In this document: piece by piece, positions 5,309 through 36,817 of the stretch | How the letters are laid out: every line of letters starts with the position of its first letter | Numbering within the stretch: the stretch's first letter is position 1 | From: a virus | Reading direction: 5' to 3' (one strand) | Virus record (IMG/VR): IMGVR_UViG_3300031566_000089 | Coordinates: 1-45,143 of that record | DNA length: 45,143 nucleotides | Notes under the pieces: model-generated | Database searches by the model: none | What the model saw: only the letters and a program-made list of their open reading frames with translations | What the model was told of the DNA's origin: nothing | Translations under genes and position numbers: made by a program

Positions 5309-5591
5309 AGGGGTCGACTGTCCCCGCGTCGGACGGGGTGTCGTTTTCCCCCTCGGCCCGTACTTCTGCCAGTAGTTCAATCTCCACGATCTCCTTAACG
5401 TCGGCCCTCTCGATAAAGTGGACTTCTCCCCCTTTGCAGTCCCAGAACTGCACCCAGTCGGTGCCCCACGAGACCGTCTTTGCCTCGACGGTTAAACATG
5501 AGTCATCCGCCAGGAGTGCACAGAAACCAAACGGGGGCGGACAGGGCTTAACCTCTGGTCGGGCCTTTGGTGGTCGGCCTCTCTTTTTCAT
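5271..5591 (-). CDS. Hypothetical protein with basic RGRPPK N terminus
   Basis: 106 residues beginning MKKRGRPPKARPEVK; RGRPPK resembles an AT-hook, a minor-groove DNA-binding motif. The middle (about 20-75) is a compact mixed segment with TDWVQFWDCKGGEVHFIE, and the C terminus is acidic. The ATG overlaps the stop of the glycosyltransferase (ATGA). It shares 3' sequence with the next zinc-ribbon gene in another frame. Family not recognised. Confidence 0.65.
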   Translation of the reverse strand: MKKRGRPPKARPEVKPCPPPFGFCALLADDSCLTVEAKTVSWGTDWVQFWDCKGGEVHFIERADVKEIVEIELLAEVRAEGENDTPSDAGTVDPYAPVGELAGDLP

Positions 5592-6835
5592 GCGGTTGCC
5601 AACACTTTCTTTGACCGGATACCTTCCTCAACACCTTCGAGGAACGGTAGCCAGCGGTTCTCTACGATGTCTGTCCAGTCGTACTTGGCGGCGTGACGCA
5701 CCGCCTTCTCCTTCAACTGTGTATCCTTGGACCCGCGCATGGCCGTCTCCATCGCCCTTACGAGGGCTGGTAAGTCGGGTTCCGCAATGAAGGTGTCCGT
5801 CGCGGGCGCGAAATAGCGCCGGTACATCGGTATCTGCCAACCTACCGGCGCGACTTCGGGCTGGCATCCCACATCCGTCACGATTGAGGGCACGCCGCAC
5901 GCTGCCGCCTCTAGGGATGTCAGCCCAAAGCCTTCCCATTGAGAGGGGTTCACAAAACAGTCCATTGCGTTATACAGGCTCGCCATCTTCCCGTCGGGGA
6001 ACCCAGTTGCGTGCGGGCCAAGGTACATCTGCTCCGGTGGTGGAAAGAGGACATGGCGGTTAACCCTGTCGTCTTGGTAGGCGCGGCTATAAGCATTGAG
6101 CATTTTCACCAGATCGGGACCGCCATGTCCCCCGTCCATCAGGGAGTGCATATAGACGATGAAGTCCTTGTGACCCGCCTTGAGTAACTGCGCCACCGCA
6201 TCCATAACGAGGTCGTGCCCCTTGCGGCAGGGATACGTGCCGTTCCTCGCCACCATGCCGAAGATGAAGCAGTCGTCGGTCAGGTATTTCGCACCCTGCT
6301 TGCGGGCCGTGCCGATCATGGCCTGCCGCTGGGCCTTCCGAGTCGCCTCATCGACCTTGTAGATATTGGTGTCGATTCCCAGGGGAATGTATTCAGTCTG
6401 TCTCACCCCCTCGTCCTTCAGCATCCTCGTGCCCCACTCGGTCGGGGCGACGACCTTGTGCGCCATCTTGAGATTCCTGACGAGGTTCTTGCCGAGGGGC
6501 TTGTGGTCGGGGAAGGCTATAGGCACCCACTTAAACCGTTTCCATGTCTCGGTGCGCCAAATCCAGTGGTCGGTCACGGAGACAACGATGTCGGCCTCGA
6601 ACTGTCTGGCCCAGCGTTCAATGACGTTCTCGCCCATGTCACCGCTGACGATGGGGTAGTAGGTAACGTTGTCGTGTTCCCAGCAGGCGTGCCCCGCCAA
6701 CCCCGCAGGCAACCAAGCTAAAGCGGACATGACCTCCGGGTGCTTCTGGAGACGCGAGGTTATCTGGTCGGCCAACCGACCGTAGCCGGTCGCCATCCAG
6801 GGAGCTGCACCGTGCCAGAGGATTCGCAAGCTCAT
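5588..6835 (-). CDS. GT4-family glycosyltransferase (GT-B fold)
   Basis: 415 residues from ATG 6835 (MSLRILWHGAAPWMATGYG), which overlaps the stop of the preceding gene as ATGA. An N-terminal Rossmann half carries a glycine-rich GYGR loop near 17-20. The C-terminal half has RNGTYPCRKGHD (about 197-208), QWEGFGLTSLEAAACGVPSI (about 299-318) with the E-x7-E signature of retaining GT4 enzymes (E301/E309), and a VTDVGCQPE segment. It should move a sugar from a nucleotide donor to a protein or glycan. It is embedded in the virion operon directly after a glycosyltransferase-methyltransferase fusion, so virion proteins are the likely acceptors; this last step is inference. Confidence 0.85.
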   Translation of the reverse strand: MSLRILWHGAAPWMATGYGRLADQITSRLQKHPEVMSALAWLPAGLAGHACWEHDNVTYYPIVSGDMGENVIERWARQFEADIVVSVTDHWIWRTETWKRFKWVPIAFPDHKPLGKNLVRNLKMAHKVVAPTEWGTRMLKDEGVRQTEYIPLGIDTNIYKVDEATRKAQRQAMIGTARKQGAKYLTDDCFIFGMVARNGTYPCRKGHDLVMDAVAQLLKAGHKDFIVYMHSLMDGGHGGPDLVKMLNAYSRAYQDDRVNRHVLFPPPEQMYLGPHATGFPDGKMASLYNAMDCFVNPSQWEGFGLTSLEAAACGVPSIVTDVGCQPEVAPVGWQIPMYRRYFAPATDTFIAEPDLPALVRAMETAMRGSKDTQLKEKAVRHAAKYDWTDIVENRWLPFLEGVEEGIRSKKVLATA

Positions 6836-8167: not shown

Positions 8168-8470
8168 TTACCACGACCCGCCTTTTTGCCCGCTAACCGG
8201 GGCTTTCATAACTACAACGCCGACAGTCTGGGACAGGGCACTTCCGGCTCCGGCAGCCCCCGCTGGGTGGAACATGAGAATGTTCGCAGCGGAGACGCCC
8301 GCCGTGATGGCGGCACCCCCTGTAACAGCCAGGTCGTCGTTGTACAGAGTCAGGACGTAATCGTTCGTGGTTAAGCCCGTGAACGTCGCCGTCTTCGTGG
8401 CGTTGGAAGCGCACGCGGCTACGGCGAAGGTCTGGAACTTGCAGTTTTCTGAGTTAAACAGTCTTGGCAT
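8168..8470 (-). CDS. Small virion protein, tandem copy 3 (putative capsid decoration)
   Basis: 100 residues, third in transcription order of three tandem paralogs that all begin MPRLFNSENC and end GGSW. The body has the shared pattern SxNASxTATxTGLTTxDYV, then a segment xxVSAADxxxFxPAGxxGAGSAxxQTVG. The size, beta-rich small-residue composition and place right after the major capsid gene suggest a head decoration or head-fibre protein. TAGGAGGA lies ahead of the ATG and overlaps the end of the previous copy. No family recognised. Confidence 0.75.
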   Translation of the reverse strand: MPRLFNSENCKFQTFAVAACASNATKTATFTGLTTNDYVLTLYNDDLAVTGGAAITAGVSAANILMFHPAGAAGAGSALSQTVGVVVMKAPVSGQKGGSW

Positions 8471-8479
8471 ACTTTCCTC

Positions 8480-8782
8480 CTACCACGATCCGCCGTCTTG
8501 ACCGCTGGTTGGAGCCACCAGTGCCAGTATCCCGACTGTCTGGGCTACCGCAGTACCGGCCCCCGAGCACCCCGTCGGTGTAAACACCAACGTGTCGGCA
8601 GCGGAGACAGCCAGGTTAAACCCCGACTGAGTTGTCAGAATCGAGTCGTTGTTGTACAGGATCGCCACGTAATCGTTCGTGGTTAAGCCTGTCATCGTGG
8701 CTGTCTGGCTTGCATCGGAGTCCAGCGATGTCAAGGCAAGGGTCTGGAATAGGCAGTTTTCTGAGTTAAAGAGTCTTGGCAT
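8480..8782 (-). CDS. Small virion protein, tandem copy 2 (putative capsid decoration)
   Basis: 100 residues, middle paralog of the tandem triplet. Relative to the other copies it differs mainly at about 20-27, 42-62 and 70-80, while the first 10 and last 30 residues are nearly fixed. Ten bases separate it from each neighbour, leaving only a strong Shine-Dalgarno site in the gap. The fixed ends and diverged middle would suit proteins that share one capsid-binding surface but show different exposed loops (inference). Confidence 0.75.
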   Translation of the reverse strand: MPRLFNSENCLFQTLALTSLDSDASQTATMTGLTTNDYVAILYNNDSILTTQSGFNLAVSAADTLVFTPTGCSGAGTAVAQTVGILALVAPTSGQDGGSW

Positions 8783-8791
8783 ACTTCCCTC

Positions 8792-9094
8792 CTACCATGA
8801 CCCGCCGTCTTGTCCAGTCGTCGGGGCCTTCATCGCCATGATTCCGACTGTCTGGGCGACCGCACTAGCGCCACCAAACGCTCCCGCCGGGGTGAACATC
8901 ACGGTGTCGGCAGCGCTGATTGCTACTTGCACGTTGTCTTCCGTCGTGGCAGCCAACCCCGTGTTCATCAGGATGAAGCAGTAGTCGGCCGTAGTCAGGC
9001 CCGTAAACGTGGCAGTCTTCGAGGCGTTAGAGGTCATCGACGCTACGGCGAAGGTCTGGAACTTGCAGTTTTCTGAGTTAAACAGTCTTGGCAT
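8792..9094 (-). CDS. Small virion protein, tandem copy 1 (putative capsid decoration)
   Basis: 100 residues, first of the triplet to be transcribed, ten bases after the major capsid gene. Its N-terminal LFNSENCKFQTFAVASMTSN closely matches copy 3. A stoichiometric virion role is suggested by its strong ribosome binding site and its place beside the capsid gene. It could instead be a minor tail protein; no tube-protein motif is visible. Confidence 0.75.
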   Translation of the reverse strand: MPRLFNSENCKFQTFAVASMTSNASKTATFTGLTTADYCFILMNTGLAATTEDNVQVAISAADTVMFTPAGAFGGASAVAQTVGIMAMKAPTTGQDGGSW

Positions 9095-26272: not shown

Positions 26273-26300
26273 TTGACATTGGGGGAATGTGTGGTATTCT
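26273..26300 (+). promoter_or_regulatory. Promoter of the rightward small-gene operon
   Basis: TTGACA (26273-26278), 16 bases, TATTCT (26295-26300) preceded by TGG, an extended -10. Start site predicted near 26307. Confidence 0.6.
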
Positions 26301-26306
26301 GAGTCT

Positions 26307-26386
26307 GAGGAGCGAGCAATGGACAAGCGGATTTCGTCTATATGGCCCCAAGCACCGGAAGCAGACCGCTCGTCGGCTTGCTCCTC
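26307..26386 (+). ncRNA. 5'-terminal stem-loop leader of rightward operon
   Basis: GAGGAGCGAGC (26307-26317) pairs with GCTTGCTCCTC (26376-26386) over 11 bases with one G-T pair; inside, GCGG (26326-26329) can pair with CCGC (26367-26370). The outer left arm contains a Shine-Dalgarno-like GAGGAG ahead of ATG 26319, whose frame looks noncoding. The structure would sit at the very 5' end of the operon mRNA. It may stabilise the message or control initiation. Confidence 0.5.
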
Positions 26387-26421
26387 AACCGGTGTAAGGG
26401 GCCTTTCTAATGGAGGGAATG

Positions 26422-26604
26422 ATGGCGAACAAGCGAATTATGACAGACTACCGATGTATCGGGGGCCATGTACACCCGATAGCGCCGGGCAATCTTCGCG
26501 GGATGCTCGCGGCGGCGAAACGCGGCGACTTCGGGCCAGAAGCGAAGACGGACGTAGCAGCGGGCAAGCCCTTTATCCTTTGCCCGTGGCGCAAGGTCGA
26601 ATAG
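26422..26604 (+). CDS. Small hypothetical protein, first gene of rightward operon
   Basis: 60 residues from ATG 26422, with GGAGGG ahead (ATG 26419 is possible too). MANKRIMTDYRCIGGHVHPIAPGNLRGM, a helical AAAKRGDFGPE middle, and a CPW near the end. Two cysteines and three histidines could bind metal. Nine small genes follow each other here, the pattern of early accessory genes. Family not recognised. Confidence 0.6.
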   Translation: MANKRIMTDYRCIGGHVHPIAPGNLRGMLAAAKRGDFGPEAKTDVAAGKPFILCPWRKVE

Positions 26605-26619
26605 TAAGCCTGTCACCGA

Positions 26620-26675
26620 GAACTCAAGCCCTATTTGAGTTCCAAGAGACATGCCCGCCACTCATTCAAGCGGGC
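26620..26675 (+). repeat. Two short hairpins in the gap after the first rightward gene
   Basis: Hairpin 1: GAACTCAA (26620-26627) with TTGAGTTC (26635-26642), perfect 8 bp, 7-base loop. Hairpin 2: GCCCGC (26653-26658) with GCGGGC (26670-26675), perfect 6 bp. Neither has a T-tract, so these are probably mRNA structures, not terminators. Confidence 0.6.
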
Positions 26676-26713
26676 CTAGAGTCGGGCAATAGTTCTATAG
26701 GAGGAGAGACAAA

Positions 26714-26902
26714 ATGAGATTCGAGGAAGCGGTAGCGAAGTTCACGGCATGGTGCGATCACCATATCAACATCGACAGTTGGGCAGAACTGAACGCCGCA
26801 GTTCGTGGCGTGGCAAAGGAGGCTGCAATAATGGCCGATGAAGGAGGCGGCGATATTGCAGAGGCCGAAATCGACCGACTCTTGCCACCCACAGCTGACT
26901 AG
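26714..26902 (+). CDS. Small acidic hypothetical protein
   Basis: 62 residues, strongly acidic and helical (MRFEEAVAKFTAWCDHHINID, then WAELNAAVRGVAKEAAIMADEGGGDIAEAE). ATAGGAGGAGAGACAAA precedes the ATG. Acidic DNA-mimic or inhibitor functions are known among proteins like this, but nothing here proves one. Confidence 0.65.
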   Translation: MRFEEAVAKFTAWCDHHINIDSWAELNAAVRGVAKEAAIMADEGGGDIAEAEIDRLLPPTAD

Positions 26903-26908
26903 TCCCTT

Positions 26909-26942
26909 CCCATCCTTGGGCCTCACGGGGTCCAGGGACGGG
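26909..26942 (+). repeat. Intergenic hairpin element, copy 1
   Basis: 14-base arms (26909-26922 and 26929-26942) with one A-C mismatch and loop TCACGG. It is followed by a purine-rich stretch with GAGGAG and the next ATG. From 26918 to the ATG (26967-26969), 52 bases are identical to copy 2. Confidence 0.75.
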
Positions 26943-26966
26943 CAGAGAAGAGTAGAGGAGAGAACG

Positions 26967-27194
26967 ATGCGCCGACACCGGCACGATTACAAGGGCGCAA
27001 GCGAGTTACAGGCAGCAACAGCCGCCTTTGATGAGGAAGCAGCAAGCAGGTCCCTAGACGAACATCGACACGAGCTTGCGATCCTCCGTGCCGAGTTCCG
27101 CGAAGCCGAAGGATTGCCCAATGTTCAGGCAATGGTGTTACAGCGGTACAGCCAGAAGAAAAGGATCGTTGAGTACCTAGAGGAGAGAGAATGA
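26967..27194 (+). CDS. Small helical protein
   Basis: 75 residues from ATG 26967. Starts MRRHRHDYKGASELQAATAAF and continues as one long charged helix to EYLEERE. Histidines and arginines dominate the N terminus. Followed with a four-base overlap by the next gene. Family not recognised; could be a DNA- or RNA-binding helix bundle. Confidence 0.65.
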   Translation: MRRHRHDYKGASELQAATAAFDEEAASRSLDEHRHELAILRAEFREAEGLPNVQAMVLQRYSQKKRIVEYLEERE

Positions 27195-27421
27195 TGACAC
27201 GCGCACAGGAAACGGCAGCAGTCAAAGCAGCGGTTAGCGCCGCCGGTTACAAGGTTCGCAACGTGGAGCACGGAAGGGGAACGGCGTACTGTTGGATTCA
27301 CGTCAATCTAGCGCAGCCAGCTCCTTATCCCATGCTTCTGGAAGTCGAGCAGATCGCAGCACAAGCAGCCGGACGTGAGACATGGGGAAACAACTGCATT
27401 GGTGTCAGTGGAACTATCTAG
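27191..27421 (+). CDS. Small hypothetical protein
   Basis: 76 residues, ATG overlapping the previous stop. MMTRAQETAAVKAAVSAAGYKVRNVEHGRGTAYCWIHV looks like an alpha-beta fold with a conserved-looking HGRGTAYCWI turn, followed by VEQIAAQAAGRETWGNNC. The pattern (helix, beta hairpin, helix) resembles small RNA-binding folds, but no family is assigned. Confidence 0.65.
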   Translation: MMTRAQETAAVKAAVSAAGYKVRNVEHGRGTAYCWIHVNLAQPAPYPMLLEVEQIAAQAAGRETWGNNCIGVSGTI

Positions 27422-27432
27422 CCGTTTCCCTT

Positions 27433-27466
27433 CCCATGCCTGGGCCTCACGGGGTCCAGGGACGGG
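27433..27466 (+). repeat. Intergenic hairpin element, copy 2
   Basis: Arms 27433-27446 and 27453-27466, loop TCACGG. Compared with copy 1, three bases of the left arm differ at the start of the helix while the other arm is kept. Followed by the same purine-rich ribosome binding stretch and ATG 27491. Confidence 0.75.
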
Positions 27467-27490
27467 CAGAGAAGAGTAGAGGAGAGAACG

Positions 27491-27715
27491 ATGAAATACC
27501 TAGTTTATCGGAAAGGCGGCGATGAGTATCTTGGCGACGGTTACGCACTCGCTGAGGCTAAGAGGCTGGTCAACAGCCCCTACGCGCTCATCGGACACCG
27601 CTATTGGGACAATCAGAAGGACGGTGTACTAGTGGGCTTTGACGAGATGCCCGACAGTGCGGAAATCACCCGAAGGCGCGCCAATGGCCTACTCGGGGCG
27701 CGGCTGATGAAGTAG
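27491..27715 (+). CDS. Small hypothetical protein
   Basis: 74 residues: MKYLVYRKGGDEYLGDGYALAEAKRLVNSPYALIGHRYWDNQKDGVLVGF in outline (beta hairpin, helix, beta). The end is basic (EITRRRANGLLGARLMK). Good ribosome binding site. Family not recognised. Confidence 0.65.
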   Translation: MKYLVYRKGGDEYLGDGYALAEAKRLVNSPYALIGHRYWDNQKDGVLVGFDEMPDSAEITRRRANGLLGARLMK

Positions 27716-27736
27716 CTTTGCGCCTAGCCTTCCCTT

Positions 27737-27770
27737 CCCATGGCCGGGGGTCGCAGCTCCCGGCGACGGG
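27737..27770 (+). repeat. Intergenic hairpin element, copy 3 (compensatory changes)
   Basis: Arms 27737-27750 and 27757-27770, loop TCGCAG. The stem sequence differs from copies 1 and 2 at most central positions, yet pairing is kept (C-G to G-C, T-A to C-G), and the A-C mismatch at the fourth pair is conserved. Confidence 0.75.
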
Positions 27771-27796
27771 TAGAGAAGATAGCAGGAGAGAGAATG

Positions 27797-27994
27797 ATGG
27801 GGCCAACAGAGTTGCTTCGGGCAATCGACGAAGCCGAACAGATAGCACCTGGCTTCCTCCAGCAACTCATCTGCGATACGTGGCTCCGGCGTGCTGGCCT
27901 TCCCGCCCAGTGGTTTCTGCGAACTGCGGGTGGTGGCAGTCACACGGTGGCCGAACTTCGAGCCGCTATTGTAAGCGAATTTGGCGACGAATAG
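27797..27994 (+). CDS. Small helical hypothetical protein
   Basis: 65 residues from ATG 27797, chosen over the adjacent ATG 27794 because alignment of the repeated ribosome binding sites (GGAGAGAACGATG in other genes) puts the start at the second ATG. MGPTELLRAIDEAEQIAPGFLQQLI and a C-terminal helix TVAELRAAIVSEFGDE. Family not recognised. Confidence 0.65.
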   Translation: MGPTELLRAIDEAEQIAPGFLQQLICDTWLRRAGLPAQWFLRTAGGGSHTVAELRAAIVSEFGDE

Positions 27995-27999
27995 CACTC

Positions 28000-28011
28000 G
28001 CGGGCAACCGC
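28000..28011 (+). repeat. Small GNRA-type hairpin before next start
   Basis: GCGG (28000-28003), loop GCAA, CCGC (28008-28011), a GNRA tetraloop, directly ahead of AAAGGAGGAG and the ATG at 28030. It takes the place of the longer hairpin found in the other gaps. Confidence 0.5.
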
Positions 28012-28029
28012 AAAGGAGGAGAGAGAACG

Positions 28030-28224
28030 ATGGAATGGAAGGTTACATACAGAAACGAGGGACGGCCAGAAAAGGGCTTCTATGACTCAGAGGGCGAAGC
28101 CACAAAGGGCGCTGACTTCCTACGCTTCCAAGGCGCCACGGCGATCAGGGTCACAAGGGCTACAGCCCAAGAAGAAGCGAAGAGGGCGTATTGGGCGGCA
28201 TACTGGGCCAACCTAGAGAAGTAA
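28030..28224 (+). CDS. Small hypothetical protein
   Basis: 64 residues. MEWKVTYRNEGRPEKGFYDSEGEA forms a beta hairpin pattern, then a helix (TKGADFLRFQGATAIRV) and an A/E/K-rich end with WAAYWANLEK. GGAGGAGAGAGAACG ahead of the ATG. Family not recognised. Confidence 0.65.
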   Translation: MEWKVTYRNEGRPEKGFYDSEGEATKGADFLRFQGATAIRVTRATAQEEAKRAYWAAYWANLEK

Positions 28225-28236
28225 CAGGAGAGAATG

Positions 28237-28482
28237 ATGATTGACTACAAGCAGGCACAACAGAAGGTAGCACTCGGACAGATGCGGGAGGAACGAATAA
28301 TGACCGCCTACAGCCTACACCCAACCGATACCGGCCCAGACTACCGCGACGAAGACGGTTCGCCCCCAACCCTAGTAAAGTGTCCAGATTGCGGGCAAAT
28401 GGAGTGGTGGACTGAGGCGGAAATGATGGACCACGGTCGCTGTCGCACTGGTCAATACCCCTGTGCTTGCGATGACAGGTAG
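28237..28482 (+). CDS. Small zinc-ribbon-like protein
   Basis: 81 residues from ATG 28237 (second of two adjacent ATGs). KCPDCGQMEWWTEAEM and the end HGRCRTGQYPCACDDR carry up to six cysteines. An internal ATG at 28300 (MTAYSLHPTDT) with GGGAGGAACGAATA ahead is a possible shorter start that leaves the cysteine-rich part intact. Role unknown. Confidence 0.6.
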   Translation: MIDYKQAQQKVALGQMREERIMTAYSLHPTDTGPDYRDEDGSPPTLVKCPDCGQMEWWTEAEMMDHGRCRTGQYPCACDDR

Positions 28483-28486
28483 CCGC

Positions 28487-28538
28487 CTTCCCCGGCGGCC
28501 CGGAGGCGGTGACAGCGCCCCCGGTCGGCAAGGGGAAG
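28487..28538 (+). repeat. Intergenic hairpin element, copy 4 (divergent)
   Basis: Outer stem CTTCCCC (28487-28493) with GGGGAAG (28532-28538), inner GC-rich stem around a GTGACAG loop. Sequence differs from copies 1-3 but position and following purine-rich binding site match. Confidence 0.65.
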
Positions 28539-28554
28539 AGTAGGAGAGAGAATG

Positions 28555-28871: not shown

Positions 28872-29228
28872 CTATGCATTGGCGGCTCCTTCGGGGGTCG
28901 CCTTTGCATTCAGCAGCGCCTCGGCGTCGGCACGGGTGATCTCCTCGCGCTTTCCGTTCAGATAGCGTGGGGTCGCTTCTCTGGCCCGCACCCAGAGAAA
29001 GATGTGGCCCATTCCGTTGTACATCGCAATCTCTTCCTTGGTAGTCGTGGCGACCCGCTCCAGCAGCCCCAGCGTGTCGGCAGCGTCTACACAGGCTTGG
29101 GCGTAGGCACGGGCAGCGTCTTTGACGAACTCTCTGCGACGGTCGGTGTATTCTTCATGCGCCCATTCAGCAAGGCCGTAGTCCTGCAACTTGACCTGAA
29201 ACTTACCCCATGCTTCTTCTTGCATCAT
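28872..29228 (-). CDS. Small hypothetical protein
   Basis: 118 residues from ATG 29228, overlapping the previous stop (ATGA). MMQEEAWGKFQVKLQDYGLAEWAHEEY, a long amphipathic helix (RREFVKDAARAYAQACVDAADTLGLLE) and a C-terminal ITRADAEALLNAKATPEGA. Convergent with the rightward operon. Family not recognised; resembles short all-alpha phage proteins. Confidence 0.6.
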   Translation of the reverse strand: MMQEEAWGKFQVKLQDYGLAEWAHEEYTDRRREFVKDAARAYAQACVDAADTLGLLERVATTTKEEIAMYNGMGHIFLWVRAREATPRYLNGKREEITRADAEALLNAKATPEGAANA

Positions 29229-29449
29229 GCTTCCCCCTTCATCCTGGCGTAGCGTTTCGCTGCCTCCGAAATGGGCACCCATGTTGGATAGATTCTTGTA
29301 GCGCCGCAGAGCTTACAGACGGCGTGCCGGTGGGCCTCGCCCTCACAGCGACAGACGGACTCCGAAGGGTCAATGCGCCAGTGGTGGCGACAACGAAGAT
29401 CAAGGGTTGGCTGTACACACTTCTCGCACACATCCGCACAGATCGCCAT
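29225..29449 (-). CDS. Cysteine-rich zinc-binding protein
   Basis: 74 residues from ATG 29449, chosen because AAGGGG lies seven bases ahead; the frame continues upstream to 29527 without support. CADVCEKCVQP, LRCRHHW, CRCEGEAHRHAVCKLCGATR give eight or more metal ligands. Ends in a helix AAKRYARMKGEA. Probably a two-zinc fold, possibly DNA-binding. It lies downstream of the replication ATPase. Confidence 0.6.
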   Translation of the reverse strand: MAICADVCEKCVQPTLDLRCRHHWRIDPSESVCRCEGEAHRHAVCKLCGATRIYPTWVPISEAAKRYARMKGEA

Positions 29450-36170: not shown

Positions 36171-36432
36171 GATTTTCCTCCCATATTCTTCGCGCTTCTT
36201 CGCGCAAGTCTTCCGGCATGTGTTCCTTCTTCACCTTGAAGAAGCAGTTGGACGCCAGCAAGTACCATCGCTTACCGATGGCGTCGAATACCTTGAACAG
36301 CATCCCCGCCGCCCTCATGGTGTCGCAGGCATGGCAGCGATGCTTGGCAGCGGCGTCGACCTCATACTCGAAGTCCTTCCAGTCGACTACTAGGTGCTTG
36401 TCACGCTGGAAGAGGTCTGTGCGGTAGCTCAT
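36163..36432 (-). CDS. Small CxxC protein
   Basis: 89 residues: LVVDWKDFEYEVDAAAKHRCHACDTMRAAGMLFKV and a beta unit RWYLLASNCFFKVKKEHMPEDLR. One CxxC plus a further cysteine. ATG overlaps the previous stop. Family not recognised. Confidence 0.6.
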   Translation of the reverse strand: MSYRTDLFQRDKHLVVDWKDFEYEVDAAAKHRCHACDTMRAAGMLFKVFDAIGKRWYLLASNCFFKVKKEHMPEDLREEARRIWEENHG

Positions 36433-36710
36433 TGCTTCGCCTTAGCGAGCGAGGCGGCAAGCTGGCAGGTGGGGTCATGGCCTGCGGAACGATAGTGTCG
36501 GCACCAAGGACATACGGCGAAGTTGGAGGTTTCTATGTTGGCGTTTCCCTGCCACTCGACCGCCTCCAGTGCCGCTACCAGCTCGTCGAACAGCGGGGCG
36601 ACCTCCTCCACTATGGCCTCCCCAAGTACAACATCCATTTCCTTGCTGCTGGTATCTTCGTGAGTCCAGCCCCTAGCCACCGCTTCCAGAATCGCTGTGT
36701 GTTCGCTCAT
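36429..36710 (-). CDS. Zinc-binding protein, partial paralog of last rightward gene
   Basis: 93 residues from ATG 36710 (GGAGGACTGGCG ahead). Helical N terminus (MSEHTAILEAVARGWTHED), then PLFDELVAALEAVEWQGN and CPWCRHYRSAGHDPTCQLAASLAKAKQ. The C-terminal half matches that of the gene at 28555-28857. The pattern (CPxCxx, GHDPxCxLA) is a known small phage zinc finger. Function unknown. Confidence 0.65.
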   Translation of the reverse strand: MSEHTAILEAVARGWTHEDTSSKEMDVVLGEAIVEEVAPLFDELVAALEAVEWQGNANIETSNFAVCPWCRHYRSAGHDPTCQLAASLAKAKQ

Positions 36711-36817
36711 CGCCAGTCCTCCTCGTCCTCCGGCACAGGGATGCCCCATGCAATCAGCCAGCCGTCAAGGAAGCGCGGCCAGTAGGCACGGATAGCTTCT
36801 AGTATTCGTCGCATCAT
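36707..36817 (-). CDS. 36-residue tryptophan-rich ORF
   Basis: MMRRILEAIRAYWPRFLDG, then WLIAWGIPVPEDEEDWR. Start overlaps the previous stop and its stop overlaps the next ATG (ATGA). It fills the 100-base gap between neighbours exactly. Possibly an amphipathic membrane helix. Small, but well tiled. Confidence 0.5.
   Translation of the reverse strand: MMRRILEAIRAYWPRFLDGWLIAWGIPVPEDEEDWR

Follow-up and report, generated by a model that had tools for sequence, protein, structure and literature searches.

A covarying hairpin repeated before start codons of a phage small-gene operon, a probable RNA control or processing signal

Introduction

A rightward operon of small genes, located at about 26.3–28.9 kb of a 45,143-base virus record in IMG/VR (the whole stretch analysed here, referred to as the window), carries similar hairpins in several of its intergenic gaps, each followed by a purine-rich tract and the next start codon. 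This raises the question of whether these hairpins act as folded RNA and, if so, what might recognise them. A first-pass annotation, made from the sequence alone, had proposed selection on RNA structure. We analysed the anatomy of the repeated unit, its occurrence in other records, the covariation of its arms and its likeness to junction elements described in other phages.

Results and discussion

Hairpins in the gaps of the operon

The gaps of the operon measure 109, 64, 69, 78, 35, 9 and 69 nt, and there is one overlap. The hairpin is present in 4 of the 5 gaps of at least 60 nt, as three copies (w1 to w3) and a diverged, longer fourth (w4) (Table 1). The sole long gap lacking the element (26605–26713) contains two other hairpins, GAACTCAA/TTGAGTTC and GCCCGC/GCGGGC. 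No known family was found for the genes downstream of the hairpins, the proteins of the operon gave no convincing family match, and none was identified as a candidate for binding the hairpin. The label "early genes" for this operon is a guess from its position.

Table 1. Positions of the repeated hairpins, their purine-rich tracts and neighbouring features in the window
Feature	Position	Strand	Remarks
Sigma-70-like promoter match, TTGACA-16-TATTCT, TG before second hexamer	26273..26300	+	Consensus match only; precedes rightward operon
Hairpin copy 1 (w1), loop UCACGG	26906..26949	+	Stop TAG of upstream gene at 26900-26902
Purine-rich tract with Shine-Dalgarno (AGGAGAG), before ATG 26967	26950..26966	+	
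Small gene, 75 aa	26967..27194	+	Downstream of copy 1; without known family
Small gene, 76 aa	27191..27421	+	Overlaps preceding gene (ATGA); no hairpin in front
Hairpin copy 2 (w2), loop UCACGG	27430..27473	+	
Purine-rich tract with Shine-Dalgarno, before ATG 27491	27474..27490	+	Identical to copy 1 tract
Small gene, 74 aa	27491..27715	+	Downstream of copy 2
Hairpin copy 3 (w3), loop UCGCAG	27734..27777	+	Different stem, compensatory changes
Purine-rich tract with Shine-Dalgarno, before ATG 27794	27778..27793	+	
Small gene, 66 aa	27794..27994	+	Downstream of copy 3
Hairpin copy 4 (w4), diverged and longer, loop GUGACAG, CUUCCCC/GGGGAAG basal clamp	28492..28536	+	
Purine-rich tract with Shine-Dalgarno, before ATG 28552	28537..28551	+	
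Small gene, 101 aa	28552..28857	+	Downstream of copy 4

The four hairpins reported in the first-pass annotation are all present, with bounds slightly wider than it gave. The near-identity it had noted between copies 1 and 2 amounts to 97% across 67 nt, ATG included. Copies 1 to 3 have the flanks CUUCCCAU...GACGGGnAGAGAA exactly in common, a pattern with exactly 3 matches in the window versus 0.01 expected from shuffles. Copy 3 had been said to combine a different, compensated stem with a retained A-C mismatch, and it does keep both flanks, mismatch included, around a stem that has been re-paired. The predicted stem energy of these three copies is about -23 to -25 kcal/mol. Taken singly, the copies have folding energies that stand out only modestly (z -1.2 to -2.8), so it is repetition and covariation, and not energy, that carry the evidence for the hairpin. 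Against the covariance model R1, copy 4, which was part of the training set, scored 19 bits (E 0.004), and the model found no other good copy in the window. The earlier judgement that these are unlikely to be terminators also holds: the + strand of the four gaps has no terminator-like site, and a purine tract, not a T-run, follows the stem, so intrinsic termination was rejected.

Anatomy of the unit

The unit consists, in order, of a stop codon (TAG), CUUCCCAUG, a variable stem of 8 positions, a short loop, the other arm, GACGGGnAGAGAA, a purine-rich Shine-Dalgarno tract and a start codon. It is always in the sense orientation, between the end of one gene and the Shine-Dalgarno tract of the next. 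The hairpin has about 14 pairs with three interruptions, and its mismatches are conserved. The loop takes one of two forms in 9 of the 10 copies known, U-N-R-C-R-G (w1, w2, w3 and L014a) or GUGACAG (w4, L014b, L070a, L070b and L071a), the exception being L071b. Judged from the letters, UYRC of one loop type is complementary to GUGA of the other, and copies might thus kiss. The 5' arms of different stem families have a mean of only 3.4 of 8 letters in common. The base of the hairpin retains the A-C mismatch, and usually also a G-G mismatch, as sequence; in L014b and L070b it is re-paired in a shifted register. The stems of w1, w2 and w3 contain G-U pairs, which point to RNA rather than DNA. In 8 of the 10 copies the TAG stop of the upstream gene lies 18–38 nt before the loop, but as TAG is the usual stop elsewhere in the operon too, no weight is given to this codon.

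Relatives in other records

In the search for relatives among 2.9 million viral contigs, the patterns left the stem open and specified either the flanks or the flanks together with the loop; true copies were kept after each match had been read. A search of other phage contigs, which the first-pass annotation had recommended, thus yielded three further virus records, in each of which two copies occupy gene junctions: L014 (IMGVR_UViG_3300035659_001346), L070 (3300031952_002110) and L071 (3300032516_001418). Two of the four records in the set are fragments of about 16 kb and one is of 6.5 kb. The arms matched in every pattern hit located at a gene junction with a Shine-Dalgarno tract. L071 has three additional hairpins before start codons, two of which were found by the model without training on them (6468–6515, E 0.0023; 5413–5444, E 0.077). 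Because exact-pattern scans miss diverged copies, the known spread of the element is a lower bound.

Rfam (release 15) gave no family above the gathering threshold for the element, only tRNAs in L071, and membership of a known RNA family was therefore rejected. No relatives were found in the viral contigs with the primase or terminase protein as query, and DNA comparison with named phages and plasmids gave nothing or short chance matches only. In bacterial genome contigs there were 30 flank-pattern matches, with the full unit in none among the best folds listed. The model, run over 397 genomes of the phylum of Pseudarthrobacter with only 16 candidates scored per genome, gave two weak matches in which the unit was absent, and when 400 genomes of the phylum of L103 were scanned by pattern, only the hit already known was returned. 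Two window proteins (36429–36749 and 28872–29282, -), for neither of which a family was found, have relatives in L070 (E 1e-13 and 4e-5, respectively); these two matches suggest that the window phage and L070 are distantly related.

Covariation and pairing

The ten copies from the four records were registered by hand, omitting the bulged G of the GUGACAG loop and two inner pairs of L071b and entering unalignable bases as N. In this alignment, the register of which was picked with the structure in mind and leans towards it, paired cells amounted to 93.2% (70.2% when shuffled) and dropped to 40–53% when the structure was slid, double-change cells numbered 24 versus 6.5 expected from shuffles, and the covariation score was 0.587 versus 0.172. 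An arm-swap test, which is independent of the hand alignment, gave a corresponding result: over seven stem families the true arms pair at 54 of 56 positions, beating every swapped pairing, and 39 of 200,000 random arm assignments reached this value, roughly as often as the identity arrangement itself comes up. The related phages thus supplied the further compensatory pairs that the first-pass annotation had named as the check on its proposal, and it is well supported that the hairpin is under selection at the RNA level. Since letters change among related viruses and the fold is kept, the RNA fold itself probably serves as a common signal for control or processing.

Comparison with SAS/ESAS

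The Start-Associated Sequence and Extended SAS (SAS/ESAS) are carried by cluster K mycobacteriophages and by Microbacterium phages of cluster EF (Krampusvirus) (PMC7302621; PMC3203893). Like them, the element is a repeated inverted-repeat unit directly before a Shine-Dalgarno-type motif and start codon, in the gap just before the start of a gene that is taken as non-structural from its position. However, whereas ESAS have conserved 17-bp inverted repeats upstream of SAS, the stem letters here vary freely and the pairing is kept. The 13-bp SAS consensus of cluster K (GGGATAGGAGCCC) or EF (GGGAAAGGACCCC) gave one hit each in the window, at 2 mismatches, which is chance level, and outside the operon. 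The probable terminase of the window (472 aa) matches Microbacterium phages such as Anakin, among the nearest named relatives, with 23–28% identity; Anakin and the EF phage AnnaSerena both belong to Krampusvirus. In Anakin, the sequence before the SAS sites is a motif different from the window element. With the consensus absent and this motif different, SAS/ESAS membership was rejected; despite the similar place, the element is not filed as ESAS because the SAS consensus is absent and the authors of the ESAS study found little support for mRNA pairing of ESAS (PMC3203893). Several SAS sites of Anakin (L123; 16633, 29138, 15666 and 27150) are immediately preceded by a strong hairpin whose stem differs from site to site, and it may be worthwhile to test the ESAS/SAS of cluster EF separately for pairing.

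Possible function and alternatives

Conserved loop letters on a stem of free sequence, a pattern expected of a protein-binding translational operator, were found in 9 of the 10 copies. This conservation of loop and mismatched base leads us to infer that recognition by a protein or an RNase is favoured, although loop conservation may partly reflect common descent, since the copies known number only about ten and come from four records. We propose, at about an even chance of being right, that the element is a cis-acting RNA, a stop–hairpin–Shine-Dalgarno–start junction unit repeated in the polycistronic small-gene mRNA of largely uncharacterised phages and presumably read by one shared factor. 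Such a factor could be an RNA-binding protein of phage or host origin or an RNase that reads structure; by recognising the loop and the mismatched base at every copy, it would coordinate the downstream cistrons in their translation, processing or stability. Processing of another kind, in which an RNase III-type or other endonuclease would cut in or beside the hairpin and leave the polycistronic mRNA as pieces with structured ends, as happens in the early region of T7, seems to us rather unlikely. R1.1, which lies between T7 genes 1.0 and 1.1, is an RNase III site with an internal loop in a 60-nt RNA (PMC6121014), and the hairpins here resemble it as irregular duplexes with conserved internal mismatches, located between small genes just before the Shine-Dalgarno sequence and start of the next. 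Their helix of 14 pairs is short compared with the R1.1 RNA, however, and a plain double-strand cutter is not expected to conserve the sequence of the loop and base, as is the case here. T4 RegB cleaves GGAG in early Shine-Dalgarno sequences (PMC3014915), and GGAG is likewise present in these small-gene gaps; but RegB recognises GGAG when A-rich sequence lies on its 3' side, and secondary structure inhibits the enzyme (PMC3014915), whereas the conserved feature here is a hairpin upstream of GGAG.

The hairpin may instead need no factor, guarding the downstream mRNA from decay or insulating the start region by its fold only. The strong stems of copies 1 to 3 and the prediction that over half of the Shine-Dalgarno tract is unpaired in the window copies are in line with this. 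We nevertheless regard it as unlikely, as it leaves the conserved loop and base sequence unexplained and as in silico deletion of the hairpin or shuffling of its letters had no consistent effect on Shine-Dalgarno accessibility; the latter result also led us to reject masking and unmasking of the Shine-Dalgarno sequence by the hairpin. We consider it very unlikely that the element works at the DNA level, whether as an operator, recombination site or mobile junction cassette, and that the hairpin merely follows from the DNA being palindromic. In favour of this reading, copies 1 and 2 scarcely differ, nearly the same stem occurs before unrelated genes in L014b/L070b and in L070a/L071a, which suggests recombinational exchange of units between phages, and a DNA-binding role was preferred for the cluster K ESAS (PMC3203893). 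An operator would, however, need conserved arm sequences, whereas the pairing and not the arm letters is conserved here; moreover, G-U pairs occur, and the sense orientation is locked to stop and start codons.

Other features of the window

The leader before the first gene of the operon (window 26302–26425; L014 5772–5905) has two helices in pseudoknot order, which are kept in both phages with letters changed. In the window the helices are formed by 26307–26317 with 26376–26386 and by 26344–26358 with 26389–26403; GGCCCCAAG and GGGGCCUUUCUAnUGGAGG are common to both leaders. A long open frame (26289–26717, +) shares sequence with the leader and the first small gene, and its end forms an ATGA with the gene at 26714. 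An SD-like GAGGAG precedes an ATG in frame with it in the leader, where a leader peptide is a candidate only. Elsewhere in the window, three consecutive leftward ORFs of 100 aa each (8168–8470, 8480–8782 and 8792–9094, -), 312 nt from start to start, represent a possible tandem gene duplication.

Implications

It is possible, though doubtful, that an undescribed RNA-binding protein or RNase common to this phage group reads the loop and mismatched base at every junction and would run the small-gene operon as one post-transcriptional regulon, and that phages pass the unit to one another as a ready-made cassette for the control of new small genes. SAS/ESAS have been known in actinophages since 2011 without a demonstrated mechanism, and RNA pairing is not supported there. 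As the similarly placed element described here shows clear RNA covariation, a post-transcriptional mechanism becomes directly testable. The element also provides a search model for small-gene operons in uncultured phages.
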